Shown here: one piece after another, positions 46,577-61,031 of the stretch
How positions within the stretch are numbered: the stretch's first letter is position 1
Layout of the letters: each line of letters opens with the position of its first letter
Assembly: GCF_000183425.1 (NCBI RefSeq)
Contig: NC_014759.1
Coordinates: 3,937,001 to 4,001,000 of the forward strand
DNA: 64,000 nt
Direction of reading: 5' to 3'
Origin: Marivirga tractuosa DSM 4126
GTDB lineage: Bacteria > Bacteroidota > Bacteroidia > Cytophagales > Cyclobacteriaceae
Made by a program: the position numbers and the translations under genes
Notes under the pieces: model-generated
The model's input: the letters and a program-made list of their open reading frames with translations, nothing else
Told to the model about the DNA's origin: nothing
Databases searched by the model: none

Positions 46577-47581
46577 ATGAGCTTGAGAAAGAAGAACAGA
46601 TTATCAATTGAAGAATATAAAGCAGGGGTGCTTTCTGGAGATAGAATTGCATTAAGTAGAGCTATAACTTTAGTAGAGAGTACCTTAGATGAAGATAATG
46701 AGTTGGGAGCCCGTCTAATAGATGAGTTATTTCAATATACAGGTAATTCATTTAGGGTAGGAATTACAGGAGTACCAGGAGTTGGGAAAAGCACCTTTAT
46801 TGAGTCTTTTGGAAGTCATATTCTTGATGAAGGTAAAAAATTGGCCGTTTTAACAATTGACCCTTCAAGTCAAAAAACAGGAGGGAGTATTTTGGGTGAT
46901 AAAACCCGGATGGAAAAACTGAGTCAATCGAAAAATGCTTTTATCCGTCCGTCTCCTTCTGGAGATGCCTTGGGTGGGGTGGCACAAAAGACCAGAGAGA
47001 GTATGTTACTGTGTGAAGCTGCTGGTTTTGATGTCATTTTTGTGGAAACAGTAGGTGTAGGGCAGTCAGAAACGGCTGTAAAAAACATGGTGGACTTTTT
47101 CCTGCTGTTAATGTTGTCTGGTGCTGGAGATGAATTGCAGGGGATTAAAAAAGGTATAATGGAAATGGCTGACGCCATTGCAATTAATAAAGCAGATGGA
47201 AATAATATTGAAGCAGCCAAAAAAGCCAAGAAGGAATATCAGAATGCTTTACATTTGTTTCCTGCCAATGAAAATGGTTGGATCCCTAAAGTCGGAATTT
47301 GTTCAGCATTGGAAAATAGTGGGTTGTCAGATATTTGGGACTTACTCAAGGAATTTCAAGCTCAGCAAAAAGAGAGCGGGTATTTTGACCACAACAGAAA
47401 AGAGCAGTCCATCCATTGGATGCATCAAACCATTCATCATTATTTGAAGAGAAACTTCTACAAAAGTCCAGAAATTAAAGAGAATTTGCTGAAATTTGAA
47501 GATGCTGTAAGACAAGGGGATAAACACTCTGTGCAGGCAGCAAGATTATTACTAGAGAACTATTTTAATAAACTATCATGA
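46577..47581 (+). CDS. meaB: MeaB/ArgK methylmalonyl-CoA mutase-associated GTPase
   Basis: MeaB loads and protects the adenosylcobalamin cofactor of methylmalonyl-CoA mutase. The 334-residue G3E-type GTPase has Walker A GVPGVGKST (about residues 60-68). LTIDPSSQKTGGSILGDKTRM and VETVGVGQSETAV follow, then the guanine-binding NKADG. The mutase genes are not in the window. Its product belongs to a cobalamin-dependent pathway, consistent with the B12 uptake operon a few kilobases downstream. The stop overlaps the start of the next gene by four bases (ATGA). Confidence 0.93.
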   Translation: MSLRKKNRLSIEEYKAGVLSGDRIALSRAITLVESTLDEDNELGARLIDELFQYTGNSFRVGITGVPGVGKSTFIESFGSHILDEGKKLAVLTIDPSSQKTGGSILGDKTRMEKLSQSKNAFIRPSPSGDALGGVAQKTRESMLLCEAAGFDVIFVETVGVGQSETAVKNMVDFFLLLMLSGAGDELQGIKKGIMEMADAIAINKADGNNIEAAKKAKKEYQNALHLFPANENGWIPKVGICSALENSGLSDIWDLLKEFQAQQKESGYFDHNRKEQSIHWMHQTIHHYLKRNFYKSPEIKENLLKFEDAVRQGDKHSVQAARLLLENYFNKLS

Positions 47582-49788
47582 CTAAAAATTACCTTTTTTT
47601 ACTAGTTTTTATACTAACTATCAATTTTGCATTTTCGCAAACAGCTTGTGAAAATGGTACAGTGAATGGCTTTGATTGCAATCAAGTAGATTTTTATGCC
47701 AATATCAATAATTCCAATTTATCTGGAAGCTCGGGAGTGGCAGGTGCCGATATTTGGGGATGGACTGATCCACAAAGTGGCATTGAATACGCCTTGATGT
47801 GCCAAACTAATGGTGTTGTATTTGTAAGTATTGAAAATCCTAGCGATCCTATAATCATAGGTCGTTTAGAAAGTCAAACGGGTAATGCAAGTTCATGGCG
47901 AGACATCAAAGTTTACAATGACCACGCTTTTGTAGTGGCAGATAATAATTCAGGACATGGAATGCAAGTTTTCGATTTGAAAAGACTTCGTGATTATTCT
48001 GGTAGTATTTTAGATTTCAATGCTGATGCAGTGTATAATGGAGTTTCCAGTGCTCATAATGTTGTTATAAATGAAGCCTCTGGATTTGCCTATATTGTGG
48101 GTGCCAGAGGGGCAAGTAATAATTGTGGTGCGGGAGGTTTGCACATTGTTGATATCAGGGATCCCAAAAATCCTAAATATGCCGGATGCTTTGATGCAGA
48201 TGGATACACGCACGATGCACAATGTGTGATTTACAACGGCCCTGATTCTGATTATCAAGGACAAGAGATTTGCTTTAATGCTAATGAAAATACAGTTACT
48301 ATAGCTAATGTAGAAAACAAGGGCAATACTTCATTGATAGCAAAATCAGGCTTTCCTCAATCTGCTTATTCCCACCAAGGGTGGTTAACTGAAGATCACC
48401 AATATTTTATTTCAAATGATGAGTTGGATGAGCAAGGGAATGGTTTTAATACACGAACTTTAATTTGGGATGTGAGGGATTTAGATAACCCTGTGCTAAT
48501 AAACCAACATTACAGTGAAAAGTCATCTATTGATCATAACTTATATATAAAAAACAATAAAATTTATCAGTCGAACTATACCAGCGGTTTAGTTATTTTG
48601 GATGCCAATAAAGTCAATGAGGGTGAAATAAGAGAGCGAGCATTTTTTGATACATATCCCAATTCGAACAATAATTCATTTAATGGTAGCTGGAGCAATT
48701 TTCCTTTTTTTGAAAGTGGAGTTGTTGTGGTCAGTGATATAAATAATGGTTTGTTTGTTTTACAGCCTAATTTGAAGGAATATATTGATTCACATCCTAT
48801 TTTTGAAGGTTGTGGTATTGACAATACTTTATCAGTTGGTATCACTGAAGGTCTAGATGTTCAGTCTTATCAATGGCAGCTAATTCAGGATGGTGGCTCA
48901 ATAAACATACAAAATAGCAATAACTTTTCCGGAGTTAATACAGCGGAGTTGACTATTAACTTAGAGCAAGAAGGAGTGGAGGAGATGAAGTTTAGATGTA
49001 AAGTAGTATTTGAAAATGGTGAAATTGCTTATAGTTATAATTCGAATAGCAATAGTGGAGTTCCTTCTGCTAGCTTTAATGCTGAATTAAATAATTTGGA
49101 AGTCTCCTTTGTTAATTATACCTCAGCTGCTGATAGTTTCGAATGGGATTTCGGGGATGGTTCAGAAATTTCAACTGAAGAAAATCCTGTTCATATTTAC
49201 GATGAGGTGGGTACATATGAGGTGGTGCTGACGGTCAGTAATGATTGTGGTACTGACTCTTACAACTATGCAGTAGATTTATCTGCATGTATCCCAGCGG
49301 CCGATTTTTCATATCATACGGAGGATGGGCAATTTAATTTTTATTCGTCTTCTGATCCTGCCAACGAATTTGAATGGGACTTTGGCGATGGTTCACCAAT
49401 TTCAACTGAAATTAACCCAAGTCATACATATGCTGAGGAAGATAATTACACCGTGACGCTGGTTGTAAGAAATGAGTGTGGGGAAAGTACATATTCTGAA
49501 ACTTTAGATGTTGAAAAAATTCTAAGTAATGACAAGGAGCTAAGAAAAGAATTTAAGGTGTTTCCAAACCCTTTTCAAAACAACTTAAATGTTAAAAATT
49601 TGAATATAAATGCTCTTGAGCGTTTAGAAATCATTGACCAAGGTGGACGTAAATTGATAGATATAAAACATTTTAGTGATACTTCTGACTTAAGTTTTCG
49701 TACAGATTATTGGAATAAGGGTATGTATTACTTAGTGATAACGAAGAAAAATGGTCAAAGGGAAGTCAGTAAGATTTTAAAGCATTAG
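47578..49788 (+). CDS. Choice-of-anchor-B protein with two PKD domains and type IX sorting domain
   Basis: A 736-residue secreted protein. After a signal peptide (cleavage near FAFSQ, residues 17-21) comes a choice-of-anchor-B domain (about 22-400) with LVIvD-type repeats. Two PKD domains follow (EWDFGDGSEISTEENP near 525 and EWDFGDGSPISTEINP near 600), and the C-terminal end (about 660-736; VFPNPFQNN and KGMYYLVITKKNG) is a type A type IX sorting domain. The product is thus exported through the SprA system and probably anchored at the surface. The function of the family is unknown. The stop overlaps that of the convergent Dph6-like gene by four bases. Confidence 0.85.
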   Translation: MTKNYLFLLVFILTINFAFSQTACENGTVNGFDCNQVDFYANINNSNLSGSSGVAGADIWGWTDPQSGIEYALMCQTNGVVFVSIENPSDPIIIGRLESQTGNASSWRDIKVYNDHAFVVADNNSGHGMQVFDLKRLRDYSGSILDFNADAVYNGVSSAHNVVINEASGFAYIVGARGASNNCGAGGLHIVDIRDPKNPKYAGCFDADGYTHDAQCVIYNGPDSDYQGQEICFNANENTVTIANVENKGNTSLIAKSGFPQSAYSHQGWLTEDHQYFISNDELDEQGNGFNTRTLIWDVRDLDNPVLINQHYSEKSSIDHNLYIKNNKIYQSNYTSGLVILDANKVNEGEIRERAFFDTYPNSNNNSFNGSWSNFPFFESGVVVVSDINNGLFVLQPNLKEYIDSHPIFEGCGIDNTLSVGITEGLDVQSYQWQLIQDGGSINIQNSNNFSGVNTAELTINLEQEGVEEMKFRCKVVFENGEIAYSYNSNSNSGVPSASFNAELNNLEVSFVNYTSAADSFEWDFGDGSEISTEENPVHIYDEVGTYEVVLTVSNDCGTDSYNYAVDLSACIPAADFSYHTEDGQFNFYSSSDPANEFEWDFGDGSPISTEINPSHTYAEEDNYTVTLVVRNECGESTYSETLDVEKILSNDKELRKEFKVFPNPFQNNLNVKNLNINALERLEIIDQGGRKLIDIKHFSDTSDLSFRTDYWNKGMYYLVITKKNGQREVSKILKH

Positions 49789-50516
49789 GAATTATTTGGA
49801 TGATTAGTGAATTCTAGTTCTGCAAAATAGAATTCACTTTTCACTTTTTTTAGTTCTTCACCTTCCTCGATCTGATATTCATAAAAATGAGATTGAGTTG
49901 AGTTTGAATTAATTTTAACAGCTTTTTGGAAAATCGGGCCGTCATAAACAAAGGTGTGGAATTCTCCATTTTCTCCACAAGGATCTACATTTGCGGGTAA
50001 TTTTCGTAGAAGCTCATGTGTGATACTTTTGCCAATTAAGTCCTTCCTTATTTTTGCAGCATCACCAGCGCAAATTTTGGTTTTGTAGCCCAATTCTAGG
50101 AATTGATTTATTACTTCTGCTGTATCTTTTTTCCATAATGGAAATAAACATTCCATGTCAACCTCTGCCATTTTTTCTTCTCTGTAGTTCTTTAAATCTT
50201 CCAAGAAAATATCTCCAAAGGCAATAGTAGTAATGTTTTTGGATTTACAGTAACTAGCATATTCTAGCATCACCTGCTCATAAGAGATATTACTTTTATC
50301 CGAAGGTAAGTAGCTAATCTTGAGAGGAATGCCTAATGCTGCTGCTTGAGCATCAATTAATTCTTTTTTGATGCCATGCATGCCCACTCTGTTTGTCTCC
50401 CCGCCAATTACAGTGTGCAAATGATCTATTTCATATTCATTGGAATTCATTAAATAGTGCAGTGCCAAACATGCATCTTTTCCTCCACTCCAACTTAAGG
50501 CAATTTTATTAGACAT
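49785..50516 (-). CDS. Dph6-like ATP pyrophosphatase (COG2102-type)
   Basis: A 243-residue N-type ATP pyrophosphatase of the diphthine-ammonia ligase (Dph6) family. The PP-loop SWSGGKDACLALH is at the N terminus (about residues 8-20), and GGETNRVGMHGI, IAFGDIFLEDLKNYREEKM and DPCGENGEFHTFVYDGP are family signatures. I chose ATG at 50516, which follows the DUF3667 stop directly, over an ATG 45 bases upstream that would add 15 residues. Bacteria lack diphthamide, so the substrate must be something else; it is the last gene of a B12-riboswitch operon, which hints at a role connected with cobalamin. Confidence 0.85.
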   Translation of the reverse strand: MSNKIALSWSGGKDACLALHYLMNSNEYEIDHLHTVIGGETNRVGMHGIKKELIDAQAAALGIPLKISYLPSDKSNISYEQVMLEYASYCKSKNITTIAFGDIFLEDLKNYREEKMAEVDMECLFPLWKKDTAEVINQFLELGYKTKICAGDAAKIRKDLIGKSITHELLRKLPANVDPCGENGEFHTFVYDGPIFQKAVKINSNSTQSHFYEYQIEEGEELKKVKSEFYFAELEFTNHPNNS

Positions 50517-50517
50517 A

Positions 50518-51501
50518 TTAAATGGTAATAAATGAAATGTAAAGTTCAAAAAGGAAACCAAAAACTAAGAGACTGAAGTAAAAGAATCCTAATATGAAAA
50601 ACTTCATTACAGATTTTCCCCAACCATTCTGGTAGAGTCTCTTAATCGAGAAAAGTGTATAGATGCTTACCCATGTAAAACTCAAAAAGATAATCCATCC
50701 TGTTGCAACTGAAAATAGACTTAATAGCAATATAGCTAAGCCATAAATAAAATAGGCAAATGCATGGAGATGTAATCCGTGAATTAGATGTTCTACGTAA
50801 TATCTTTTTTTCATAAATAGAAGGTAAAGGATAAAAGCAAAAATGGGGAGGAAGAAAAACATCATCAAAGGCAAATTTCTGATGGCCTGATAAGTAAACA
50901 TTGAAGAATTTAATAGAAATGATCTTTTATAAGCAGGTGAAATGAGGTCTAAATCTAATCCTATCCCCTGAAGATTAGCTTCAAATTCTTCATCTGATAA
51001 ATTTTCATCTGAAGCCCAATATTTTAGTGTGCTCCATTTATTAAGTGAATCTTTCTGTTCTACTGCTTTATTTTCCTCTGCAATTTGAATTAGTTGATCT
51101 ACTCGTACACTGTCTAGCCCGTTAAGTTTGGCAGAATCCAAAACTTCTTTTCGATTGACGAAAGACTTAAGGCCTTTATCAATCAGATCTTTAGGGACTG
51201 TAAGACTTATCATGAAGAAATAGAAAAGAGAGAATATCAAATACATCCGAATAGGATTGATATATCGTCTTCTTTTGCCTTCATTAAATGCTTTGCTAAG
51301 CCTGCCAGGTCTGAAAATAAAAGGATTTAAAGTTTTGAATAGGATGGTGTCAAAACTTAAATAATTAGAAAAGAAATCTTTTATAAAAGCTCCTAATGGT
51401 AGTTTTTTATCAGAGTTTTCTTGTCCGCAATTTGGACAAAAATTTTCATTTGAATCTAATTGCTCTCCACAATTAAGGCAGTTCGTAGTCTTGTTTTTCA
51501 A
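50518..51501 (-). CDS. DUF3667 zinc-ribbon membrane protein
   Basis: A 327-residue membrane protein. The N terminus has a zinc ribbon with two CxxC pairs (CLNCGEQ at about residues 8-14 and CPNCGQE at 22-28). The DUF3667 core follows (NPFIFRPGRLSKAFNEGKRR near 58-77), then about five helices (near 88-105, 205-230, 240-262, 268-290 and 300-320). The loop between helices 1 and 2 is long and hydrophilic. The function of the family is unknown. It sits within the B12-riboswitch operon, and its stop is only one base from the Dph6-like start. Confidence 0.85.
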   Translation of the reverse strand: MKNKTTNCLNCGEQLDSNENFCPNCGQENSDKKLPLGAFIKDFFSNYLSFDTILFKTLNPFIFRPGRLSKAFNEGKRRRYINPIRMYLIFSLFYFFMISLTVPKDLIDKGLKSFVNRKEVLDSAKLNGLDSVRVDQLIQIAEENKAVEQKDSLNKWSTLKYWASDENLSDEEFEANLQGIGLDLDLISPAYKRSFLLNSSMFTYQAIRNLPLMMFFFLPIFAFILYLLFMKKRYYVEHLIHGLHLHAFAYFIYGLAILLLSLFSVATGWIIFLSFTWVSIYTLFSIKRLYQNGWGKSVMKFFILGFFYFSLLVFGFLFELYISFITI

Positions 51502-51554
51502 TCTTCTGTTCAGTTAGCTAGCTACGAAAGTAAAAAATAAATTGAATGTTTTCG

Positions 51555-51713
51555 TTATTTTTTTGCCTTCACATTTTTAAAATCATAAGGGCAATGTCGG
51601 CACCTGTTTCCACAGCAATACCCTCTTTTTAGATGATATTTTTCAGTGAAAACGAAAAAACCATTTTCCATGTAAAAATCTCCCTCTTCTATTTTGATGT
51701 TTTTAGCACTCAT
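51555..51713 (-). CDS. DUF5522-like Cys-rich microprotein (52 aa)
   Basis: A 52-residue protein in the gap between the thioesterase and DUF3667 genes. It has the pattern of the DUF5522 family: YMENGFFVFTEKYHLKRG followed by a Cys cluster CCGNRCRHCPY (residues 33-43), with four Cys and a His that could bind a metal. The ATG at 51713 overlaps the thioesterase stop in the coupled form ATGA, which supports translation. The function is unknown. It is co-transcribed in the cobalamin riboswitch operon. Confidence 0.8.
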   Translation of the reverse strand: MSAKNIKIEEGDFYMENGFFVFTEKYHLKRGYCCGNRCRHCPYDFKNVKAKK

Positions 51714-52099
51714 GTGATTAAAATCGGTTTCTTATGTTCATCAATTGCTACCATAGTAAACCGGCCTGAGATTGATTTTTCTCGGTGATCAGAATACATT
51801 TCTTCGGTAAAAACATCCACTCTGACCTCTAAACTAGTATTTCCGACTTTTTCTATTTGACCAACTAATTCTACTATTGTTCCAGCAGGAATGGCTTTAT
51901 TGAAATCAATTTTATCACTGCTTACCGTTACCATTTTCTGCCTGGAATAGCGCGTGGCGGTTATAAAAGCCACCTCGTCCATCCATTGGAGGGCAGTTCC
52001 TCCAAATAGCGTATCATAATGATTAGTTGTATTGGGAAAAACTGCCTTGGTTACTTTTGTAATGGCGTTATCTGCCTTATTTCCTTTAGTTACAATCAT
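51710..52099 (-). CDS. Hotdog-fold acyl-CoA thioesterase
   Basis: A 129-residue thioesterase of the YciA-like acyl-CoA hydrolase group. The hotdog active-site segment LFGGTALQWMDEVAFITATRYSR (residues about 31-53) contains the conserved Asp, followed by a hotdog core with strands carrying VELVGQIEKVGNTSLEVRVDVF. Acyl-CoA substrates are not predictable. The start overlaps the upstream BtuG-like gene by four bases and its stop overlaps the microprotein gene, so the operon is continuous. Confidence 0.88.
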   Translation of the reverse strand: MIVTKGNKADNAITKVTKAVFPNTTNHYDTLFGGTALQWMDEVAFITATRYSRQKMVTVSSDKIDFNKAIPAGTIVELVGQIEKVGNTSLEVRVDVFTEEMYSDHREKSISGRFTMVAIDEHKKPILIT

Positions 52100-53145
52100 C
52101 TATCTCTTTCGATGTTAAAAGAAAATTGAGTAGGAGCAATGCCAGATTCAAATGTATCCAGCAGTTCTCCCTCTGCATCATATCGAATTACCAGGCCTTC
52201 ACTAGAGAAATCCAGTGCGTCTCCTAGATAAAAGTCGCCTGAAACCGGATCAACAGCAAAAGCATAGGGAGTTTGTATTTCCACTTCAATACCTGTTGAG
52301 CTAATACTGTTATCTGAAATATTTAAAAACAAAATTTCACTATTTGAATAAAAATAGATGGCATCTTCATGTGAATCAATATCACCTAATACTGAATTGT
52401 CCAGTTCTATTTGGTTTGCGATGCCTGTTAAAGATGTATTTAATTGCAGCAAATTCCCACTAGTACAAATCACCCAAACATTACCGTTATCGTCTTCTAT
52501 TATTTCCTGTGGCCCGCTTGGAACCTCAAGAGTTTCTTCTATTTGTAAATTATCAAGGTTGATAATGGATATTTCGCTAATACTTCCATCAAAAGATGCG
52601 TGGCTTACTACAAGTTTATTGTTTTTGATAAAAAGATGTTCAGGGTACTCCTGAGTTTCAATTCGATCTATTAATTTGTTTGTGGTTAAATTCACAACGA
52701 AAATTTCACTATTTGTCAAAGCAAAATTTTGTTTGTAAGGTCCCCAGTTTGCAATAAAGGCGATATCACCCAGTACGGCAATATCTCTTGGTTTATCCAA
52801 TTCAGCGAAGCTGATTTTAGCTTCAGATTTCAAATTTGTAGTCATTAAATCAATCGAATTACTTCCATTTAGCACACTGTAGATTCTATCATTACTATTA
52901 TCTACCAAAATGTTTTGTTGCACATCCCCAATGAAGTTACTGTTTTGCCCCCTGTAAAGTGACGGATTATAATCATAGGATTCAGGATCATAATTGCCAA
53001 TGGTAGCATTATTACTGCCAAATCCTCCTTCATGGTAGATGTAGACACCCGCTGTTTTTAGTGCTACATCTTCAGTTTCTTCACAGGATGAGAAAATAAA
53101 CAATGCAAGAATAAAGTTGATTAAAATTGAATAGTTCTTTGTCAT
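52096..53145 (-). CDS. BtuG-like beta-propeller surface lipoprotein (DUF5074/YncE-like)
   Basis: A 349-residue lipoprotein (lipobox Cys21 in IFSSC, followed by EETED) with repeated beta-propeller blades of YncE/DUF5074 type (YSVLNGSNSIDLM, IAVLGDIAFIANWG and EIFVVNLTTNKLIDRI). Position and type match BtuG of Bacteroides, a B12-binding seven-bladed propeller lipoprotein that sits on top of BtuB. It is encoded one base after the BtuB-like receptor in the same riboswitch-controlled operon. Assignment as BtuG is inferred from fold, anchoring and neighbours, not from a sequence comparison. Confidence 0.75.
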   Translation of the reverse strand: MTKNYSILINFILALFIFSSCEETEDVALKTAGVYIYHEGGFGSNNATIGNYDPESYDYNPSLYRGQNSNFIGDVQQNILVDNSNDRIYSVLNGSNSIDLMTTNLKSEAKISFAELDKPRDIAVLGDIAFIANWGPYKQNFALTNSEIFVVNLTTNKLIDRIETQEYPEHLFIKNNKLVVSHASFDGSISEISIINLDNLQIEETLEVPSGPQEIIEDDNGNVWVICTSGNLLQLNTSLTGIANQIELDNSVLGDIDSHEDAIYFYSNSEILFLNISDNSISSTGIEVEIQTPYAFAVDPVSGDFYLGDALDFSSEGLVIRYDAEGELLDTFESGIAPTQFSFNIERDR

Positions 53146-53146
53146 G

Positions 53147-55033
53147 TTATTTGAATTTAAATTTTCGGGTTATACTGATTTGATAATTTCTACCGGGCAT
53201 TGCATAGCCAGAATAGAGGAAGTATTCTGTGTTAAAAGTATTCTTGGCTTTAGCTGATAAATGCCATGAAGTCGATTTCCAACTCAATCCTATATCAGAT
53301 AGTAAAAATGAATCAAGAGCAAATAGCTCGGAGTTGCTATTGGTGGTATAAACTTTACCTGTCCACTGGTGGAAAGAGTTTAATGAAAATTTCTTCCAGG
53401 AAAGAGAAGCTGTGGCATTTGCTTTATGCAATGGAGTGTAGATAAGTTGCTTCCCTATTTCACGGGAATTTTTTTCTGAATCTAAAACTGTCGATTGAGT
53501 GTAGCTATATTGGAAATTAGTTTGAATTTTGAAATAATTAAAGACAGGAAATTCAACTCCCATCTGAGTTTCAACACCCTTTGCCAGCACTTCTTTGATG
53601 TTTCGAGGTCTCCATTGATTATTTTCATCAGGCACCCACTGAATCCAATTGACTACATCATTGTGGTAAGCAGTGATGGAAAAATCTGTTTTAACATCAA
53701 GCCACTGATGCGAAGACTGTAAAGTCATCTCCTTATTCCAAGCGGTTTCTGAATTTAGTTCCGGGTTACCTGCTTCATTCCAAAATCGGTCATTTAAGGT
53801 TGGAAGTCTATAGTTAAAAGAAGAGTTGAGTTTAAGCTTAAGTTTGTGATTTCCATGTTGAATTAATTGATACGAAATGCCCGCATAAGGCGAAACGGGT
53901 ATATTCACTCCTGGGACTAATTGCTGCCTCAAATGTAAAGCATAATCAATTCCTTCAATGATTTGGCCCTTAAATAATGCACCGAGGCTGTATCTTTGTT
54001 CAATAGCACTCCCTGATTCATAACTTTGGTTGTTGGCCTCAATATAATTGTGACGAGTTGAAAGTTTGACTTCATGATTTTTGGAGAAATGATGTTTATA
54101 AGTAGCAAAACTTTCCCATCTGTTCACTTTATTGTAGGAAATTGCCTGGTTCAATTGATAATCCATCTCATCCATGAAATAACCACTCCCAATAGATAGA
54201 AGGCCATTTTTCACTTTCTTATCGAAATTAAGATGTGTCCTTAAATTATGATCCTCTTGCTCATTTATATCTCTGGTAGACCCTATTGGTGGTTGAATTT
54301 CTCGGAAGTTGTCATTATACCAAATCGCTAATTTTATTTTTTCAGTATTACTAATTTTATAGCCAATGCTTTGGTTTATCCCCCATCTTTCAAAGCTTGC
54401 GTTGTCCTGCTTTTCGCCAGTTTGTAAAATCTCAAAATCATTTTCGGCTTTCCCCCAATATAAACGAGTATCATAAGCCCATTTGCCGTTGCTGCCAGTT
54501 GCATTTACATTACTATTTAGCAACCCAAAACTGCCGATTTGCTGACCAATTGATAACGTATTCTCTGTTTTGAAGGAGAGAGGATTTTCTAATAAAACGG
54601 CACCACCAAAAGCACCACTTCCGCCCATAGTGCTTCCACTTCCCGGAATGATGGATATTTCAGAAATGGCTTGAGAGGGTAATAAAGAAAAATCTGTTTG
54701 TCCTAAGGTGAAGCTATTGATATTGAAATTGTCCCAAAGCACTGCAGTTTGGCTAGCATTTGTACCACGAAATGCAATGGTTGTGAGCATTCCATTTCCA
54801 TATTCTTTGAAATAGATACTGCTGTTCTGCTTTAAAATTTCGCTAATATTAGCGCCATCATAAAACTCCAGTGTTTTGGCTTTGGGCAAAATAATAGTAT
54901 TGCCTGGCAGAAATTGTTTTTCAAAATTGCCATGCACATATACTTCCTCTAACACAGAAATGCTGTCCTGATGGTTTTGTGCCCATAGTCCATTGGAGAA
55001 CCATAGCAATAAAAATAAGATACCTAATCGCAT
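53147..55033 (-). CDS. btuB: TonB-dependent receptor, BtuB-like (cobalamin uptake)
   Basis: A 628-residue TonB-dependent receptor. A signal peptide (cleavage near GLWAQ, residues 15-19) is followed by a plug domain (about 28-150: VYVHGNF, EILKQNSSIYFKEYGNGMLT, RGTNASQTAVLWDNFN and GGSGAFGGAVLLENP). The 22-strand barrel ends in FKFK. A carboxypeptidase-like N-terminal domain is absent, as in BtuB-type rather than SusC-type receptors. The cobalamin riboswitch about 110 bases upstream strongly supports B12 as the substrate. TonB is encoded at 3674-4351 in this window, though which TonB it uses is unknown. Confidence 0.9.
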   Translation of the reverse strand: MRLGILFLLLWFSNGLWAQNHQDSISVLEEVYVHGNFEKQFLPGNTIILPKAKTLEFYDGANISEILKQNSSIYFKEYGNGMLTTIAFRGTNASQTAVLWDNFNINSFTLGQTDFSLLPSQAISEISIIPGSGSTMGGSGAFGGAVLLENPLSFKTENTLSIGQQIGSFGLLNSNVNATGSNGKWAYDTRLYWGKAENDFEILQTGEKQDNASFERWGINQSIGYKISNTEKIKLAIWYNDNFREIQPPIGSTRDINEQEDHNLRTHLNFDKKVKNGLLSIGSGYFMDEMDYQLNQAISYNKVNRWESFATYKHHFSKNHEVKLSTRHNYIEANNQSYESGSAIEQRYSLGALFKGQIIEGIDYALHLRQQLVPGVNIPVSPYAGISYQLIQHGNHKLKLKLNSSFNYRLPTLNDRFWNEAGNPELNSETAWNKEMTLQSSHQWLDVKTDFSITAYHNDVVNWIQWVPDENNQWRPRNIKEVLAKGVETQMGVEFPVFNYFKIQTNFQYSYTQSTVLDSEKNSREIGKQLIYTPLHKANATASLSWKKFSLNSFHQWTGKVYTTNSNSELFALDSFLLSDIGLSWKSTSWHLSAKAKNTFNTEYFLYSGYAMPGRNYQISITRKFKFK

Positions 55034-55140
55034 AAAATATTGTTTAATGCGACCACGGTCAAAATCAGATGTAAAAAAGTTAGCTTATAGCTTTCGTACA
55101 TTCCTGACCTTTCACCCGAAAGTCGAAAATAATTATGAGC

Positions 55141-55340
55141 TATGGCAGGTCTCCTGACTCGTCCGTTGAAGTTGCGGCCTTCCCATCAGCCGGTAGGCTA
55201 ACAGTGGCAAGGATAGTGCATTTCAATCTAAAAATGGACTTACAGTTGCGGGGACAGTTTCGGACTATTGATCTAAAAATACAATCAAGCACCGAATTCC
55301 CTTTTAATTCTGAAGGATTGCTTTCCAACAGAAACCATAA
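55141..55340 (-). ncRNA. Cobalamin riboswitch
   Basis: On the minus strand the classical elements appear in order: GGTGCTTG after GGGAATTC, then CCCCGCAACTGTAAGTCC. The B12 box GCCACTG follows at 55208-55202, then GGGAAGGCCGC and finally GACGAGTCAGGAGACCTGCC. The outer P1 helix is seen as TATGG/CCATA (55339-55335 with 55145-55141). The element faces the BtuB-like receptor gene, with about 107 bases between. It should shut the operon down when adenosylcobalamin-type ligands are abundant. A T-run near 55079-55073 may belong to the expression platform, but no clear terminator was seen. Confidence 0.95.
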
Positions 55341-55542
55341 TTCTGTTGCAAATGTAGGCGAATGAAATCTGAAATCAAATTTTAATGTTTTAATTCTATA
55401 AATAAGAATGTTTCCGTAGTGAATATAGTATCGGTGTATCCAGTTAAGTTGCTTTTTGATATTGTTCAGTCAAAAAATGGGGATATGACTGCCAATGAGT
55501 TTTTAGATTAATGCATTATAAAATATACCAACAATACATTTA
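55341..55542. other. Spacer between the riboswitch and the LysR gene
   Basis: About 200 AT-rich bases between the riboswitch 5' end and the stop of the LysR gene. It should contain the promoter for the B12 operon; no gene or other clear element was recognised. Together with the riboswitch and leader, the gene-free stretch runs from 55034 to 55542. Confidence 0.5.
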
Positions 55543-56439
55543 TTATTTGTATTCCTGATACCATTTAAATTTCTCTTCAAGAATTTCATTTTTCTTAAGT
55601 TGAATAAAGTCCAGATAGGCCTTGGCAACAGGAGACATTCTTTTTCCTTTTAGCCAAATCAACCTCCATTTAGTAGTTACAGGCAAATCTTCAATAGGTA
55701 AAATATATAGTTGCTTTTCTATTAGTTCGTTTTTGATTCCAATTAAAGGCATGATGGAGTTTCCCAAACCTGCAATAACAGCTTGTTTCACGGCCTCGTT
55801 GGAGGTGAGCTCTAATCTCTTTCTAGCCTTGGAATTATGGGTGCCGTAATAATGTTCCATTGCACTTCTTGTGGCAGAGCCTTCTTCTCTGTAGATCAAA
55901 GGCATTTGTTCATTTGGTTGTGGTTCACTGCTGATCAAATATAATTTATTGTCAATGAGAAGTTCTTCTTCAACATCTAATAAATCAGGAACCACACTTA
56001 CAAGGGCGAAATCTATTTCATTATTTTTTAAGCTTTGAACTACTTTAGTTTTATTCGTTACGTCTAGGACCAAGTCAATTCCAGCGTTATTTGATAGGAA
56101 TTCTTCAAGAAAAAATGGGATCACATATTTTCCTGTTGATGCAGAGGAGATTTTCAGTTTCCCTGTCAGCATGCCCTTATAGGCTTCGGTTTTGTAGTTT
56201 ATAGTATTTAATTCTTCAATAACCCTTTCGGCTATTAGGGCAATTTCTTTTCCGAAATCGGTGATATGCAATTTCCGTCCTATTATCTCATAAAGCGATA
56301 TGTCAAACTGATCCTGAAAATTTTTTAACTGGATAGAGACAGCAGGTTGAGTCATGAAAAGCTCCTCAGAAGCTTTAGTGATACTTTGCTTTTGTACCAC
56401 CTTTAAAAATATCTGTAGCTGATGTATAGTATAGTTCAT
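55543..56439 (-). CDS. LysR-family regulator (CbbR-like) of the dab genes
   Basis: A 298-residue LysR-type transcription factor. The N-terminal winged helix has LQIFLKVVQKQSITKASEELFMTQPAVSIQL, with QPAVSIQL as the recognition helix, and the effector domain spans about residues 90-290. It is divergent from the small gene and dabBA with 106 bases between starts. This arrangement resembles that of CbbR-type regulators next to carbon-uptake genes. An AT-rich pair of short palindromes in the spacer (56450-56487) is a candidate site. The effector and target are inferred from position. Confidence 0.85.
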   Translation of the reverse strand: MNYTIHQLQIFLKVVQKQSITKASEELFMTQPAVSIQLKNFQDQFDISLYEIIGRKLHITDFGKEIALIAERVIEELNTINYKTEAYKGMLTGKLKISSASTGKYVIPFFLEEFLSNNAGIDLVLDVTNKTKVVQSLKNNEIDFALVSVVPDLLDVEEELLIDNKLYLISSEPQPNEQMPLIYREEGSATRSAMEHYYGTHNSKARKRLELTSNEAVKQAVIAGLGNSIMPLIGIKNELIEKQLYILPIEDLPVTTKWRLIWLKGKRMSPVAKAYLDFIQLKKNEILEEKFKWYQEYK

Positions 56440-56449
56440 AATAATAGTT

Positions 56450-56487
56450 TATGTTATTCATTAAACATATAAATAAAAATATATGAA
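56450..56487. promoter_or_regulatory. Candidate LysR operator between the regulator and dab genes
   Basis: Two overlapping inverted repeats: TATGTT-attcatta-AACATA (56450-56469) and TTCAT (56457-56461) with ATGAA (56483-56487). LysR proteins bind AT-rich interrupted palindromes in exactly such divergent spacers. The sequence is very AT-rich, so chance symmetry is possible. Confidence 0.4.
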
Positions 56488-56545
56488 CAATGTTTGCCAA
56501 ATTTGTGTAAATAATTTGAAAAACCATTAAACAATTTTAAAAGTT

Positions 56546-56833
56546 ATGGAAAAAGTATTAGTGAATAAGCAAACAGAAGACCTTGTAAGAGGAGAGTATT
56601 CAGCAGTAGAAGCAAGAGAAATTGTCTCTAATTTGATTAGTCAAAAAATCAACTTTCATAATTTGAGAGATTTCAGTTCTTATGAAAGATATGGAAAACC
56701 AGATGAAAACTCTAGAACAAGAATAGCTGAATTAAAAGCAAGTAGGAAATCTATATTGGAAATTATTGATGCTGCCAAAGAAGAGGGTAAAACAGTGAAA
56801 ATCAATTCAAATATCACAATTGAATTAATCTAA
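56546..56833 (+). CDS. Uncharacterised 95-residue protein preceding dabB
   Basis: A soluble, 95-residue protein of no recognised family. It is predicted mostly helical with one beta-like end (KTVKINSNITIELI). Residues 1-33 hold a helix with EDLVRGEYSAVEAREIVSNL, the middle has INFHNLRDFSSYERYGKPD, and a second helix carries ELKASRKSILEIIDAAKEEG. No Cys, no signal peptide and no membrane helix are present. It lies 11 bases before dabB on the same strand, and is the first gene transcribed from the shared divergent spacer, so it is likely part of the same operon. Its role in inorganic-carbon uptake is inferred from this position only. Confidence 0.7.
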   Translation: MEKVLVNKQTEDLVRGEYSAVEAREIVSNLISQKINFHNLRDFSSYERYGKPDENSRTRIAELKASRKSILEIIDAAKEEGKTVKINSNITIELI

Positions 56834-56844
56834 AACTGTAAGAG

Positions 56845-58446
56845 ATGACCAAAGAATTAATCATAGGCATTGTTTTTCTATCACCCCTGTTTTTTACAGT
56901 TATAGCCATTTTGTCTTGGTTTATGAAGGGCTTAAGGCCAAGGAAATTGATAGGGGTTAGTAGAATATCAATTTATTCATCTATTCTAATCGCCCTATTT
57001 TCTGCTCTGATGGTATATCAAAGTGGATTAATAGAGAGTAATAGTTTAGCTTTCAATGGTCTAGGAATATCCATTAGGTTAGATGCTTTGAGTGTTTTGA
57101 TATTCACCATGATTAATCTCATCTCTTTTGTAGTGATGAGATTTAGTTTTAATTATATGGATGGCGACAAGAGGCAGGGAGTCTTTATCGGAAGATTGGC
57201 TGCGACTATTGCTTCTGTTCAGTTATTAGTGCTGTCAGGAAATGTAGGCTTGTTGTGGATTTCTTGGGTATTGACAAGTATTTCTTTACATCGATTACTT
57301 GTTTTTTATTCTGAAAGACGCAGATCTAAATTGGCTGCCAGGAAGAAATTTATAGCAGCACGACTGAGTGATTTGTTTTTGCTGGGAGCAGTTTTATTAA
57401 CCTTCAATCGTTTTGGTACGGGAAATTTAGAAGTGGTATTTACTGAGATGAAAAATTTTTCCGGTATTCTACCGCTAGAAATAGAATTGGCAAGTATTTG
57501 TATTGTGCTAGCCGCAATTCTGAAATCTGCTTTATTTCCTACTCATGCCTGGTTGGTAGAAGTAATGGAAACGCCCACACCGGTTTCTGCATTACTCCAT
57601 GCCGGTTTATTGAACGCAGGGCCATTCTTAGTAGCTAGAATGTCTTTCATGGTAGGAGAGACGACATATGCTCCGATTGTCCTGATTATTTTTGGCGGAT
57701 TCACTGCATTATTTGGATCCATTGCCTATATGACTCAATCTTCTGTGAAGACTGCTTTGGGCTATTCCAGTATTTCCCATATGGGCTTTAGTTTGTTACT
57801 ATGCGGATTTGGTATTTATGCTGCGGCTATGCTACACTTGGTAGCACATTCGTTCTACAAAGCGCATGCATTTCTTTCTTCTGGCAGTTTTATTGACGTT
57901 AAAAAAGCATCAAAAATAGAGCTTCCAGAGAGAAAGGCTAATCTGCTTGTCCTTGTAATAAGCATAGGGCTTGCTTTCACAATTTTTGGATTTATGGCCT
58001 ATGCCTGGGGCATCAACCCCATAGAAGAATTATCATTATTGGTGATCAGTTGCATTATCGTCATGGGATTGTCTTTATTAATAGCTACTGCTTTAGATTC
58101 TTATGGAAGTAAAAGGTTGATTCCAAAGGTGGTATTGATGGCCGCCCTTGTTGCTTTGGCATTTTTCAGCTTGGAAACATTGATGGGTACTATTTTGAAA
58201 TCACAAATTCCAGTGATTATGCAACCCTCTACAGCGGTGGTGATTTTATTATTCTTTTGGTTGATAGTTTTCGCAGGAATAGTGCTTATTCAAATCTTTT
58301 CGCCCTTCATCAAAGATTCCAGCTTCTGGAGGAAATGGTCCATTCATTTCAGAAATGGGCTTTATGCGAATGTGGTTTATGACCGTGTGGTAGGGGCCTT
58401 GTATGTAAAAGATTCTAAACCTGATTTCATAAAAAAATATGAATGA
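56845..58446 (+). CDS. dabB: DabB, proton-antiporter-like subunit of the DAB inorganic-carbon transporter
   Basis: A 533-residue member of the NuoL/MrpA antiporter-like family. About 13-14 membrane helices are visible. Family motifs include the ISLHRLLVFYSERR-like region near residue 145, TPVSALLHAGLLNAGPFLVARM near 247, the YSSISHMGFSLLLCGFG region near 310 and VAHSFYKAHAFLSSGSF near 332. Followed by dabA, it forms the DAB2-type system, in which a proton-coupled membrane subunit is thought to drive DabA to hydrate CO2 vectorially. No other complex I genes are adjacent, so it is not part of a Nuo operon. Confidence 0.9.
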   Translation: MTKELIIGIVFLSPLFFTVIAILSWFMKGLRPRKLIGVSRISIYSSILIALFSALMVYQSGLIESNSLAFNGLGISIRLDALSVLIFTMINLISFVVMRFSFNYMDGDKRQGVFIGRLAATIASVQLLVLSGNVGLLWISWVLTSISLHRLLVFYSERRRSKLAARKKFIAARLSDLFLLGAVLLTFNRFGTGNLEVVFTEMKNFSGILPLEIELASICIVLAAILKSALFPTHAWLVEVMETPTPVSALLHAGLLNAGPFLVARMSFMVGETTYAPIVLIIFGGFTALFGSIAYMTQSSVKTALGYSSISHMGFSLLLCGFGIYAAAMLHLVAHSFYKAHAFLSSGSFIDVKKASKIELPERKANLLVLVISIGLAFTIFGFMAYAWGINPIEELSLLVISCIIVMGLSLLIATALDSYGSKRLIPKVVLMAALVALAFFSLETLMGTILKSQIPVIMQPSTAVVILLFFWLIVFAGIVLIQIFSPFIKDSSFWRKWSIHFRNGLYANVVYDRVVGALYVKDSKPDFIKKYE

Positions 58447-58505
58447 GGAAAGAAGTTTCTTAATGACTTATTTAAAAGCAATTTAGTGTATTTAAACAAA
58501 TTAAA

Positions 58506-61031
58506 ATGTTAAATAAAATCAAGGATTCTGAAATCAATTTAATGAATGTTTCAATAGGTAAGGCTCTTCTTGATGCTTCAAAGAAAATAGCGCCTTTATG
58601 GCCATTAGAAAATTTTGTTGCTGTAAACCCCTATTTAGGGCTAAGCGATCACTCCTTTGAATCAGCTGCTCAAAGATTATCTTATGCAGCAGGAATCCAC
58701 ACTACGATGTCTGCAAACTATTATCTAAATGCTTTAGAGCAAGGTAATATATTGATGGAAGATTTGGAAACTGCAGTGAATGAAAAATATCGAGACAATA
58801 AAATTAGTGCGAAATCCTTTTTAGAAACACTTAAAAAGAAGGAATTCAAAAATGCACATACTACTCAAATACATACAGTTGCTGAGTTGGCGAAGAAGAT
58901 CAGCACGGCAAACTGGCCTGATTTCATGCTAGATTGTATTTCTTCCTGGGCGGCTTCTTATTTTGACGAGGCGCAAAGTCAATGGAAAAAGGAGGGGCAA
59001 GAATTAAGTTTGTTTTCTGCATGGAAAATTGAAGCAGAAACCAACAGATCACCATCATTGATTGGGATGAAGGGATTTCATAAGCTGATAAAAGAGTTAC
59101 CAGATAATCATATTGAAGCAGCAGCTATTGCACTTCATGAGCTTGAGCTGGAGGAGAAAGTTCTACCAATTTATTTACATAGTTTGTTGCTAAGGGTAGG
59201 TGGTTGGTCTTCCTACATTGCTCATTTTGATTGGGATGCTAAGCGATACGGCCGTGAAGAGAAAAAATTAAGTGAATTCTTAAGCGTATTAATTTGCTGG
59301 GAATATGGTGTTTATAAAGCTTTGAAAACCCCAGTTTTGGAAAGCCAATGGAAGAAAGCGAAGTTGGAGATGCTTAAATATGATGCGGCTGATACCAATT
59401 TGTCGGATTTGATTGTATTACAAAACGCATATGATTTAACTGCTCAAAGACGATTAATTAAAAAATTTAAGAGGAAGGATTCTTCTAAGCAAAAAGCATC
59501 TAAACCGAAAGTACAAGCTGTTTTCTGTATCGATGTCAGATCTGAGGTTTATCGTAGGAATCTGGAATCTGTAGCACCAGAGGTTGGTACATTAGGTTTC
59601 GCAGGCTTCTTCGGTTTTCCAATTAATTTTGTAAAAATTGGTCATGACAAGGGATATGACCAATGTCCTGCATTAATACCTTCAAGCTACACCGTGAGGG
59701 AGAAAATTCTTAATAAAGATCAGAATGGGAAAGTAGTTTTAAGAAGAAAACTCAATAGAGTCTTCAATTTTTCGTGGAAGTCTTTTAAATCAAGTGCAAT
59801 CAGTTCCTTTGGTTTTGTGAGCCCTATTGGATTGTCTTTGTTACCTAAACTATTCACTGATTCCTTTGGGATGACTAGGCCTGTTCCACATCCGCAAAAA
59901 AACGGCTTGAGGAAGGAAGAAATCGAGAATTTATCGGTTGAACTTGAGAGCAGTAATAGTGAACTGACTCTAGGAATTCCATTGGAGGCAAGGGTGAATA
60001 TGGCAAAAGGAGCTCTTCAGGCAATGTCACTTACTGAAGATTTTGCCCGCGTGGTGATGATAGTAGGACATGGATCTACCTCTGTCAATAATCCTCATGC
60101 CTCCGGCTTGGATTGTGGTGCTTGTGCTGGGCAGTCAGGTGAGGCTAATGCAAAAGTGGCATCCATTATCTTAAATGATAAAGAGGTGAGGAAGCAGCTC
60201 GCCAGTGATAAAATTGTCATTCCTGATTCAACCTATTTCCTGGCATGTCTGCATGATACTAGTACCGATGAGATTTCACTTTTTAATGCGAATTTAGTTC
60301 CCTCTTCTCATCAAGCAGATCTGGAAAATATAAGAAAGCGAATTGCACAAGCAGGAAGCGCTACTCGTTCAGAAAGAGTTTTAAGGATGAATATAGAAGA
60401 CGGAAAAGATGTTGATTCATTCATGAAAATAAGAGCTAAGGATTGGTCGCAAGTACGACCGGAGTGGGGGCTTGCAGGTTGTTCTTCTTTTGTAGTTGCA
60501 CCAAGAACCATTACTAGAGGAGTCGATTTGAAAGGCCGGTCTTTTTTACATTCCTATAGTTGGAGAGAAGACCGAGGATTTAAAGTTTTAGAAACTATTA
60601 TGACTGCACCTATGGTAGTGACAAGTTGGATCAACCTCCAATATTATGGATCCACAGTAGATAACAAGCATTTTGGTTCTGGTAATAAAACTTTGCACAA
60701 TGTCACTTCAGGAATTGGAGTGTTAGAAGGATTTGCTGGAGATTTAAGATCTGGCCTGCCGATGCAATCGATTCACGATGGGGTAAACTATCAACATGAA
60801 CCATTACGATTAAGTGTCGTGATTAATGCGCCCAAAGAAGCCATGATTAAGGTTTTGGAAAAGCATGATTCGGTAAGGCAGCTTGTTGATAACCAATGGA
60901 TTTTCTTGATGGCAATGAATGATGAAGGAGAAATTACTGACATTTATGATGGAGATTTAAGATGGAGGAAGTTGATTGCAGAGCAAGTTGTTTATGAACC
61001 AAATGAAAAAATGGTAGAAGAGTTAGTTTAG
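58506..61031 (+). CDS. dabA: DabA, carbonic-anhydrase-like subunit (DUF2309/UPF0753)
   Basis: An 841-residue DabA (DUF2309) protein. The four ligands of the zinc site are present: Cys341 and Asp343 in VFCIDVRSE, His522 in IVGHGSTS and Cys537 in GLDCGACAG, a beta-carbonic-anhydrase-like arrangement. N-terminal signatures include IAPLWPLENFVAVNPYLGL. The gene follows dabB by 59 bases. DabAB takes up inorganic carbon in chemoautotrophs and also occurs in heterotrophs, where it may supply bicarbonate to carboxylases at low CO2. A hairpin follows the stop. Confidence 0.93.
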   Translation: MLNKIKDSEINLMNVSIGKALLDASKKIAPLWPLENFVAVNPYLGLSDHSFESAAQRLSYAAGIHTTMSANYYLNALEQGNILMEDLETAVNEKYRDNKISAKSFLETLKKKEFKNAHTTQIHTVAELAKKISTANWPDFMLDCISSWAASYFDEAQSQWKKEGQELSLFSAWKIEAETNRSPSLIGMKGFHKLIKELPDNHIEAAAIALHELELEEKVLPIYLHSLLLRVGGWSSYIAHFDWDAKRYGREEKKLSEFLSVLICWEYGVYKALKTPVLESQWKKAKLEMLKYDAADTNLSDLIVLQNAYDLTAQRRLIKKFKRKDSSKQKASKPKVQAVFCIDVRSEVYRRNLESVAPEVGTLGFAGFFGFPINFVKIGHDKGYDQCPALIPSSYTVREKILNKDQNGKVVLRRKLNRVFNFSWKSFKSSAISSFGFVSPIGLSLLPKLFTDSFGMTRPVPHPQKNGLRKEEIENLSVELESSNSELTLGIPLEARVNMAKGALQAMSLTEDFARVVMIVGHGSTSVNNPHASGLDCGACAGQSGEANAKVASIILNDKEVRKQLASDKIVIPDSTYFLACLHDTSTDEISLFNANLVPSSHQADLENIRKRIAQAGSATRSERVLRMNIEDGKDVDSFMKIRAKDWSQVRPEWGLAGCSSFVVAPRTITRGVDLKGRSFLHSYSWREDRGFKVLETIMTAPMVVTSWINLQYYGSTVDNKHFGSGNKTLHNVTSGIGVLEGFAGDLRSGLPMQSIHDGVNYQHEPLRLSVVINAPKEAMIKVLEKHDSVRQLVDNQWIFLMAMNDEGEITDIYDGDLRWRKLIAEQVVYEPNEKMVEELV

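Follow-up and report, generated by a model that had tools for sequence, protein, structure and literature searches.

Which genes does a cobalamin (B12) riboswitch bring together with the genes of B12 uptake, and does their company mean anything? The question is raised by a locus of Marivirga tractuosa DSM 4126, located in a stretch of 64,000 nucleotides (contig NC_014759.1, positions 3,937,001 to 4,001,000; hereafter the window), for which Pfam and Rfam annotation gives the minus-strand order cobalamin riboswitch, btuB, btuG, 4HBT (a hotdog thioesterase gene), DUF5522, DUF3667 and a COG2102 (DUF71) PP-loop gene. An initial annotation had described this riboswitch and six-gene set, and every feature that it named was found on the minus strand by Rfam, Pfam and open reading frame (ORF) coordinates. 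The locus is more than a chance arrangement: three of its gene linkages, those of 4HBT, DUF5522 and the DUF71-B12 gene to cobalamin riboswitches, recur among relatives, which points to undescribed steps in the handling of B12 shortage. In many microbial communities B12 is shared and in limiting supply, which is why the response of an auxotroph to its shortage matters.

Linkage of the downstream genes to cobalamin riboswitches

Seventy-eight genomes of the host's family were searched for RF00174, DUF71, DUF5522 and 4HBT, and a gene was considered linked when a riboswitch preceded it on its own strand by no more than 9 kb (genomes and loci are referred to below by G and L numbers). RF00174, searched with strict filters, was found at 114 places in 73 of the 78 genomes, DUF71 at 45 places in 42 and DUF5522 at 58 places in 58. 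DUF71 is linked in 24 of its 42 carrier genomes (0.06 expected by chance) and DUF5522 in 17 of 58 (0.08 expected), the expectations being computed from genome length and riboswitch number. The 4HBT search, made with the window protein, returned 20 close places (63–100% identity) and 118 that are distant (at most 44%), of which 15 of the close (0.04 expected) and none of the distant paralogues are linked (Fisher 3.6e-16); the P values for linkage are indicative only, as the genomes are related and kinship was ignored. Conserved linkage to B12 genes, which the initial annotation had proposed as the test for the last four genes, thus holds for COG2102, DUF5522 and the close 4HBT places, and fails for DUF3667.

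A wider sample consisted of 80 genomes of the phylum, hand-chosen from 296 and mostly ones with a listed riboswitch. It contains DUF71 in 31 genomes and DUF5522 in 43, and locus maps place DUF71 on the same strand behind a B12 box in at least 14 of the 31, from five families; the B12-box pattern used for the maps recovers 20 of 20 loci with a listed RF00174 match. The riboswitch loci also hold cobU, cobT, cobS, a cobC-like histidine phosphatase, binding proteins, DUF6580 and SIR2 genes (identities from Pfam run on one member per cluster). DUF71 and DUF5522 sit inside such runs, as in L119, which reads btuB-btuG-SBP-cobU-4HBT-DUF5522-cobT-cobS-cobC-DUF71 (SBP, substrate-binding protein). The cobalamin regulon of these bacteria gains two families, the 4HBT group and DUF5522 with or without a CWC domain.

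The 4HBT thioesterase group

Ten of the 15 linked close 4HBT places lie outside btuB operons. The order riboswitch-metE-PAS-4HBT is found in G341, G364, G337 and G333, and in G319 with the addition of a CWC protein; G304 has riboswitch-metE-4HBT, G297 riboswitch-4HBT and G332 riboswitch-DUF5522-4HBT-cobW, while in G339 and G370 the gene follows what by eye appear to be metE remnants. Within btuB operons it occurs in the window genome, a genome of the same genus (G349), G330 and G368, as well as in G321 behind DUF4465. Six riboswitch operons combine a full-length metE ORF with 4HBT (metE identity by Pfam on one of the six, by BLAST cluster on the others). The small gene was missed by the ORF picker and placed from homology searches in G341, G337 and G333 (4HBT) and in G332 (DUF5522).

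MetE is the B12-independent methionine synthase, so that this 4HBT group keeps the company of B12-sparing genes, and it is on this ground that we propose a release of coenzyme A (CoA) from esters stalled at methylmalonyl-CoA mutase. Riboswitch-controlled metE is under the same kind of riboswitch, and the six operons carry the same 4HBT group; in the window the gene sits instead in a btuB operon, with no metE present. By fold family the window protein is predicted to be an acyl-CoA hydrolase. It shares the 4HBT domain with YciA and other acyl-CoA hydrolase hotdog thioesterases and matches PDB 2gvh and 2eis, but it scores below the NCBIfam YciA cut-off (41.5 vs 162 bits) and falls in a close group of its own, linked to cobalamin riboswitches. 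The strand opposite the operon carries, 2.2 kb past its end, a gene for MeaB, which is also nearby in several relatives. No mention of the riboswitch-linked group was found in open-licence PMC literature; the thioesterase named in a figure legend of PMC8620254, in the part of that paper available, is a different one.

Three observations were made on the neighbours of this group. The PAS protein between metE and 4HBT is small (about 160–210 amino acids; L215:5364-5855, L217:5397-5879, L220:4609-5178, L221:5104-5673, L213:6105-6602), and in L019 (11302-11925) a PAS protein follows the riboswitch where metE is not intact; it may be a further member of the cobalamin regulon (PAS by Pfam on L220 and L019 only). 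In L216 (3521-3868), L222 (5177-5671) and L019 (11302-11925) the riboswitch is followed by short ORFs that look by eye like the MetE N-terminus, as if metE had decayed and the downstream thioesterase had been kept under the riboswitch. In G332 a CobW-type GTPase (L219:3494-4468, PF02492 + PF07683) stands behind riboswitch-DUF5522-4HBT.

DUF5522

The window protein belongs to DUF5522 by its PF17653 score (82.1 bits, gathering cut-off 25), and its closest named relative is from a Marivirga sp. (88%). Cysteines C33, C34, C38 and C41 are invariant in 26 aligned proteins. In B12 loci the domain is either standalone or fused behind Cys_rich_CWC (PF14375), the latter in L104, L098 and L016; the CWC of L098 scores below its cut-off (21.9 vs 24), and L108 gave no CWC match.

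Named loci were ranked by closeness to the window protein, and among the best 80 of 588 there are 6 with an upstream B12 box and 6 more with a B12-type gene within 5 kb, this gene being solely a distant TonB receptor in L155 and solely DUF6580 in L159. Fulvivirga sediminis and Fulvivirga sp. M361 have the box upstream of DUF5522, Flavobacterium frigoritolerans and F. yafengii have the gene beside cobU or cobT with the box farther off, and in Cytophaga aurantiaca it adjoins DUF71, with no box. Many of the remaining named loci are from Flavobacteriaceae, with DUF5522 near 1-aminocyclopropane-1-carboxylate (ACC)-deaminase-like and DUF4136 genes. On a tree of the domain (40 columns, many unresolved forks) the B12 label, which 9 rows received by hand from their context in the maps, is clustered, with 14 changes against a shuffle mean of 28.8 (0 of 500 shuffles as low). 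One spacing trait is found in 26 of 32 B12-linked copies and 18 of 92 others, L141 and L229, two of the six exceptions among the linked copies, being missed solely through the start position of the pattern. Neither the tree label nor the trait defines one single B12 clade. Open-licence PMC literature yielded no mention of DUF5522.

The DUF71-B12 enzyme

The COG2102/DUF71 family was divided in 2012 into Dph6 and DUF71-B12, the latter having the motif ENGEF/YH in place of EGGE/DxE, and DUF71-B12 was tied to B12 salvage by de Crécy-Lagard et al. in the same work (PMC3541065, as far as its text was available, here and below). The last gene of the operon, to which the initial annotation assigned no purpose and a Dph6-like product, therefore has a known association, and its label has to be DUF71-B12: the window protein carries ENGEFHT and an SGGKD PP-loop, and E[N/Y/H/R]GE[F/Y]H is present in 65 of 66 cluster ORFs, the remaining one being a fragment. 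The clustering with B12 genes that is typical of the subfamily is seen in the 24 linked genomes, and the window copy is itself located behind btuB-btuG. A histidine occupies the position of Dph6 E188, and the score for the archaeal Dph6 NCBIfam equivalog is 85.2 bits against a cut-off of 197.3. A diphthamide role was accordingly rejected on motif and score, bacteria being without diphthamide (PMC3541065). An adenosyltransferase role was also discarded as unneeded, a PduO-type enzyme being present in 75 of the 78 genomes including that of the window.

It was proposed in 2012 that DUF71-B12 stands in for bacterial CbiZ, whether by catalysing the same reaction, with cobyric acid passed on to CbiB, or by salvaging pseudo-B12 along a different route (PMC3541065). 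In the 78 genomes CbiB was matched in 7, CobS in 18 and CbiZ in none, so that no contrast with CbiZ-containing genomes is available. Only 4 of the 42 DUF71 carriers have CbiB, and the window genome is not one of them, which is not the co-occurrence expected of a CbiZ substitute; 15 have CobS and 27 have neither. Among carriers at least 90% complete, 24 of 38 are without both (hand count), and the 24 riboswitch-linked carriers include 22 without CbiB and 14 without CbiB and CobS. The window genome (100% complete) has a PduO-type adenosyltransferase but gave no CbiB, CobS or CbiZ match, so that its organism looks like a pure B12 scavenger. The absence of CbiB from most carriers means that a cobyric-acid route would come to a dead end, unless CbiB has an unrecognised replacement, and the presence of DUF71-B12 in such likely pure scavengers weakens the standing hypothesis for this orphan family. 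Our first choice, held with low confidence and by analogy, is that the enzyme could be an amide ligase acting on a corrinoid side-chain acid, because PP-loop enzymes of this class, such as Dph6, form amides with ATP.

The window protein thus resembles the described DUF71-B12 subfamily in PP-loop fold, ENGEF/YH motif and clustering with B12 uptake or salvage genes, and differs in standing behind btuB-btuG in a genome without CbiB, CobS and CbiZ matches. In the passages available, the 2012 paper stresses btuCDF and cbiB as neighbours; its main text nowhere uses the word riboswitch (PMC3541065). In the available parts of PMC8305020 and PMC5481537, COG2102/DUF71 terms are confined to the reference lists. 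Two subtypes of DUF71-B12 were also noticed, of about 240 and about 215–225 amino acids (L098, L131, L004, L014, L108), whose motifs differ at several points (GDIFLEDL vs GDIDxxxHRxWEEKV); G304 and G351 carry both in one locus.

Operon structure, leader and DUF3667

Coordinates and evidence are collected in Table 1. The five junctions measure, in order, +1, -4 (ATGA), -4 (ATGA), +53 and +1 bases; the initial annotation had the 1-base, 53-base and 1-base gaps right and counted three ATGA couplings or near-couplings where there are two couplings. A single transcript would cover all six genes. For the COG2102 gene the ATG at 50516 is the probable start codon, the listed ORF (49785-50561) beginning at an upstream TTG. 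BtuB and BtuG resemble the solved Bacteroides BtuBG chains 8p97/8p98 in a sequence search of the PDB; for BtuG this similarity and the adjacency to btuB support the assignment, and cobalamin binding and the capping of BtuB are predicted. The Bacteroides BtuBG uptake loci likewise have btuB beside a BtuG beta-propeller lipoprotein, and the window differs from them, as described in the available parts of PMC10404256 and PMC6143338, in its downstream cargo of 4HBT-DUF5522-DUF3667-DUF71.

The riboswitch is the sole RF00174 match of the genome. One base only has changed in G349 between the end of the Rfam match and btuB codon 9. Since the btuB start codon falls within a predicted hairpin and the leader gave no terminator-like match, the riboswitch is likelier to act on translation than on termination.

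DUF3667 follows the only large gap of the operon. A hidden Markov model built from three proteins, which would miss divergent members, was run over the ORFs of the examined loci other than the 80 named DUF5522 loci, and found DUF3667 behind a B12 box only in the window genome and in G349. The other matches, L043 and a weak partial one in L044, are from two genomes of one other genus, in which DUF3667 lies about 5 kb upstream of an unlinked DUF71 gene without a B12 box. As a regulon member DUF3667 was therefore rejected, there being no riboswitch linkage outside the genus in the examined loci, and it is best taken as a probable lineage-specific passenger restricted to the genus. Bacteroidota promoters have the consensus TTTG / TAnnTTTG, with TAnnTTTG as the -7 element. 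The gap contains a TACTTTCG box, one base off this element, which is kept in G349; its conservation is not decisive, the two genomes being 91% identical in the gap stretch.

Table 1 Features of the B12 operon and its surroundings (window coordinates)
Feature	Position	Strand	Evidence
Cobalamin riboswitch aptamer RF00174, B12 box 55144-55159	55127..55354	-	Rfam 101.1 bits (gathering cut-off 31.5), E 4.1e-24, model positions 1-189 of 189
Expression platform	55034..55126	-	RNA fold z -2.25; predicted hairpin spans btuB start codon
Candidate Bacteroidota-type promoter TTTG-N19-TACATTTG, aptamer start	55349..55379	-	Sequence inspection against TTTG / TAnnTTTG
btuB, TonB-dependent B12 receptor	53147..55033	-	Plug + barrel domains; best PDB matches Bacteroides BtuBG BtuB, E 1.8e-49
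btuG-like surface lipoprotein, beta-propeller	52096..53145	-	DUF5074; PDB 8p97 chain B E 1.2e-18, 3dsm E 9.6e-16
Hotdog thioesterase (4HBT), riboswitch-linked group	51710..52099	-	PF03061; PDB acyl-CoA hydrolases; ortholog linkage
DUF5522 microprotein, 52 amino acids, CCxxxCxHCP motif	51555..51713	-	PF17653 E 2.9e-23
53-base gap, possible internal promoter (weak)	51502..51554	-	TACTTTCG box at 51532-51525, one base off TAnnTTTG
DUF3667 protein with zinc ribbon, probably membrane-bound	50518..51501	-	PF12412 + Zn_Ribbon_1; membrane location from sequence
DUF71-B12 (COG2102) PP-loop ATP pyrophosphatase, motif ENGEFHT	49785..50516	-	PF01902 E 9.4e-37; PDB 3rjz
MeaB, methylmalonyl-CoA mutase chaperone GTPase, outside operon	46577..47581	+	PF03308 E 9.3e-103

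Proposed function and alternatives

We favour a cobalamin-scarcity operon that combines uptake, a CoA-freeing 4HBT and a corrinoid-acting DUF71-B12, with a probability of about one half. In this account, for which we infer the unity of the transcript, the direction of regulation and all substrates and reactions, low B12 would lead the riboswitch to permit expression of the mRNA, and BtuB and BtuG would then increase B12 uptake. The 4HBT protein would free CoA from the acyl-CoAs that accumulate when methylmalonyl-CoA mutase is without adenosylcobalamin, propionyl- or methylmalonyl-CoA being the likeliest. DUF71-B12 would work with ATP on scavenged corrinoid, preferably by ligating an amide onto a side-chain acid (repair or upgrading), DUF5522, small and rich in cysteine, could be a partner that perhaps handles metal or corrinoid, and DUF3667 would be carried along. 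A generalisation to an undescribed B12-scarcity module of the Bacteroidota under cobalamin riboswitches, with a thioesterase for the idle mutase, CWC/DUF5522 as corrinoid or cobalt handler and DUF71-B12 as a ligase repairing deamidated or truncated cobamides rather than supplying CbiB, is tentative and, taken as a whole, rather unlikely.

Several points weigh against a scarcity operon of this kind. Unlinked copies are numerous by this measure (DUF5522 in 41 of 58 carriers, DUF71 in 18 of 42, 4HBT at 5 of 20 close places), and strict riboswitch filters and genes at contig ends account for only part of them, two of the unlinked DUF71 copies (L129, L101) being neighbours, at a contig end, of btuG or a binding protein. 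The initial annotation had stated that its idea would fall if the genes were mostly away from B12 genes in relatives; for DUF5522 this is literally the case, yet the linked share is far above the chance expectation. The substrate specificity of hotdog enzymes is unreadable from sequence. CobS is present in 15 of the 42 DUF71 carriers and 3 of the 36 non-carriers (Fisher P 0.006), so that a lower-ligand or cobinamide role fits DUF71 as well as repair does. Finally, a second promoter may lie in the 53-base gap and would free DUF3667-DUF71 from the riboswitch here.

This last point leads to the alternative of two units, riboswitch-btuB-btuG-4HBT-DUF5522 and DUF3667-DUF71, the second transcribed from the gap promoter and its DUF71 not under B12 control here. 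The tight gene spacing does stop at the gap, and the box is retained in the genus mate, but no -33 TTTG element was seen upstream of it, it lies in a stretch where the two genomes are 91% identical in any case, and the gene directly before DUF71 is btuB, btuG, cobU or cobC-like in 26 of 35 B12-box loci (hand count from the maps); such an arrangement is possible, if on balance doubtful. The alternatives are not mutually exclusive, and their odds need not add to one. That the last genes are bystanders sharing the btuB transcript by chance could be argued from DUF3667, found behind a B12 box only in the window genus among examined loci, and from the common non-B12 site of DUF5522 near ACC-deaminase-like/DUF4136 genes in Flavobacteriaceae. 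For 4HBT, DUF5522 and DUF71 it is already contradicted, as all three are found repeatedly behind cobalamin riboswitches, across many genera and in varied gene orders, while the 118 distant 4HBT paralogues, which serve as negative control, show no linkage; applied to the group as a whole it is very improbable.

The remaining alternatives concern single proteins. As a CbiZ-like amidohydrolase, DUF71-B12 would convert pseudo-B12 or another cobamide into cobyric acid, from which CbiB would rebuild the cofactor, and this is in line with its anticorrelation with bacterial CbiZ and co-occurrence with CbiB (PMC3541065), with the lack of CbiZ in all 78 family genomes, and with the replacement of Dph6 E188 by histidine in DUF71-B12 (PMC3541065) and in the window protein. 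In the family, however, 38 of the 42 carriers have no CbiB match and 27, the window genome included, lack both CbiB and CobS, the presence of DUF71 does not track that of CbiB (Fisher P 1.0), and the product would be a dead end without CbiB; PP-loop enzymes are moreover normally ligases, according to a reviewer of PMC3541065 in its available part, so that we regard such an activity as improbable. The thioesterase, instead of relieving acyl-CoA, might serve methionine or one-carbon metabolism under B12 limitation, as the six operons with full-length metE would suggest. The gene is nevertheless under a riboswitch in loci without metE (G297, G332 and the btuB operons) and where metE seems by eye to be a remnant (G339, G370), which makes a methionine role quite unlikely.

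Neighbouring genes

The region 55543-61031 of the window holds a LysR-type regulator divergent from a 95-amino-acid ORF, a proton-antiporter subunit (PF00361) and DabA (PF10070), and is likely a DAB inorganic-carbon transporter operon adjoining the B12 operon. On the other side, 47578-49788 encodes a choice-of-anchor B protein that carries PKD domains and a sorting tail for type IX secretion. The first 4 bases of its gene overlap the end of meaB, and the last 4 overlap the end of the DUF71 gene. In the surveyed loci, DUF6580 genes (L012:9355-9945; cluster c9 in L002, L005, L007, L008, L010, L031 and L095; L228) follow cobalamin riboswitches, behind btuB or as the first gene, in several families, which makes DUF6580 (Pfam on L012 only) a candidate B12 gene.

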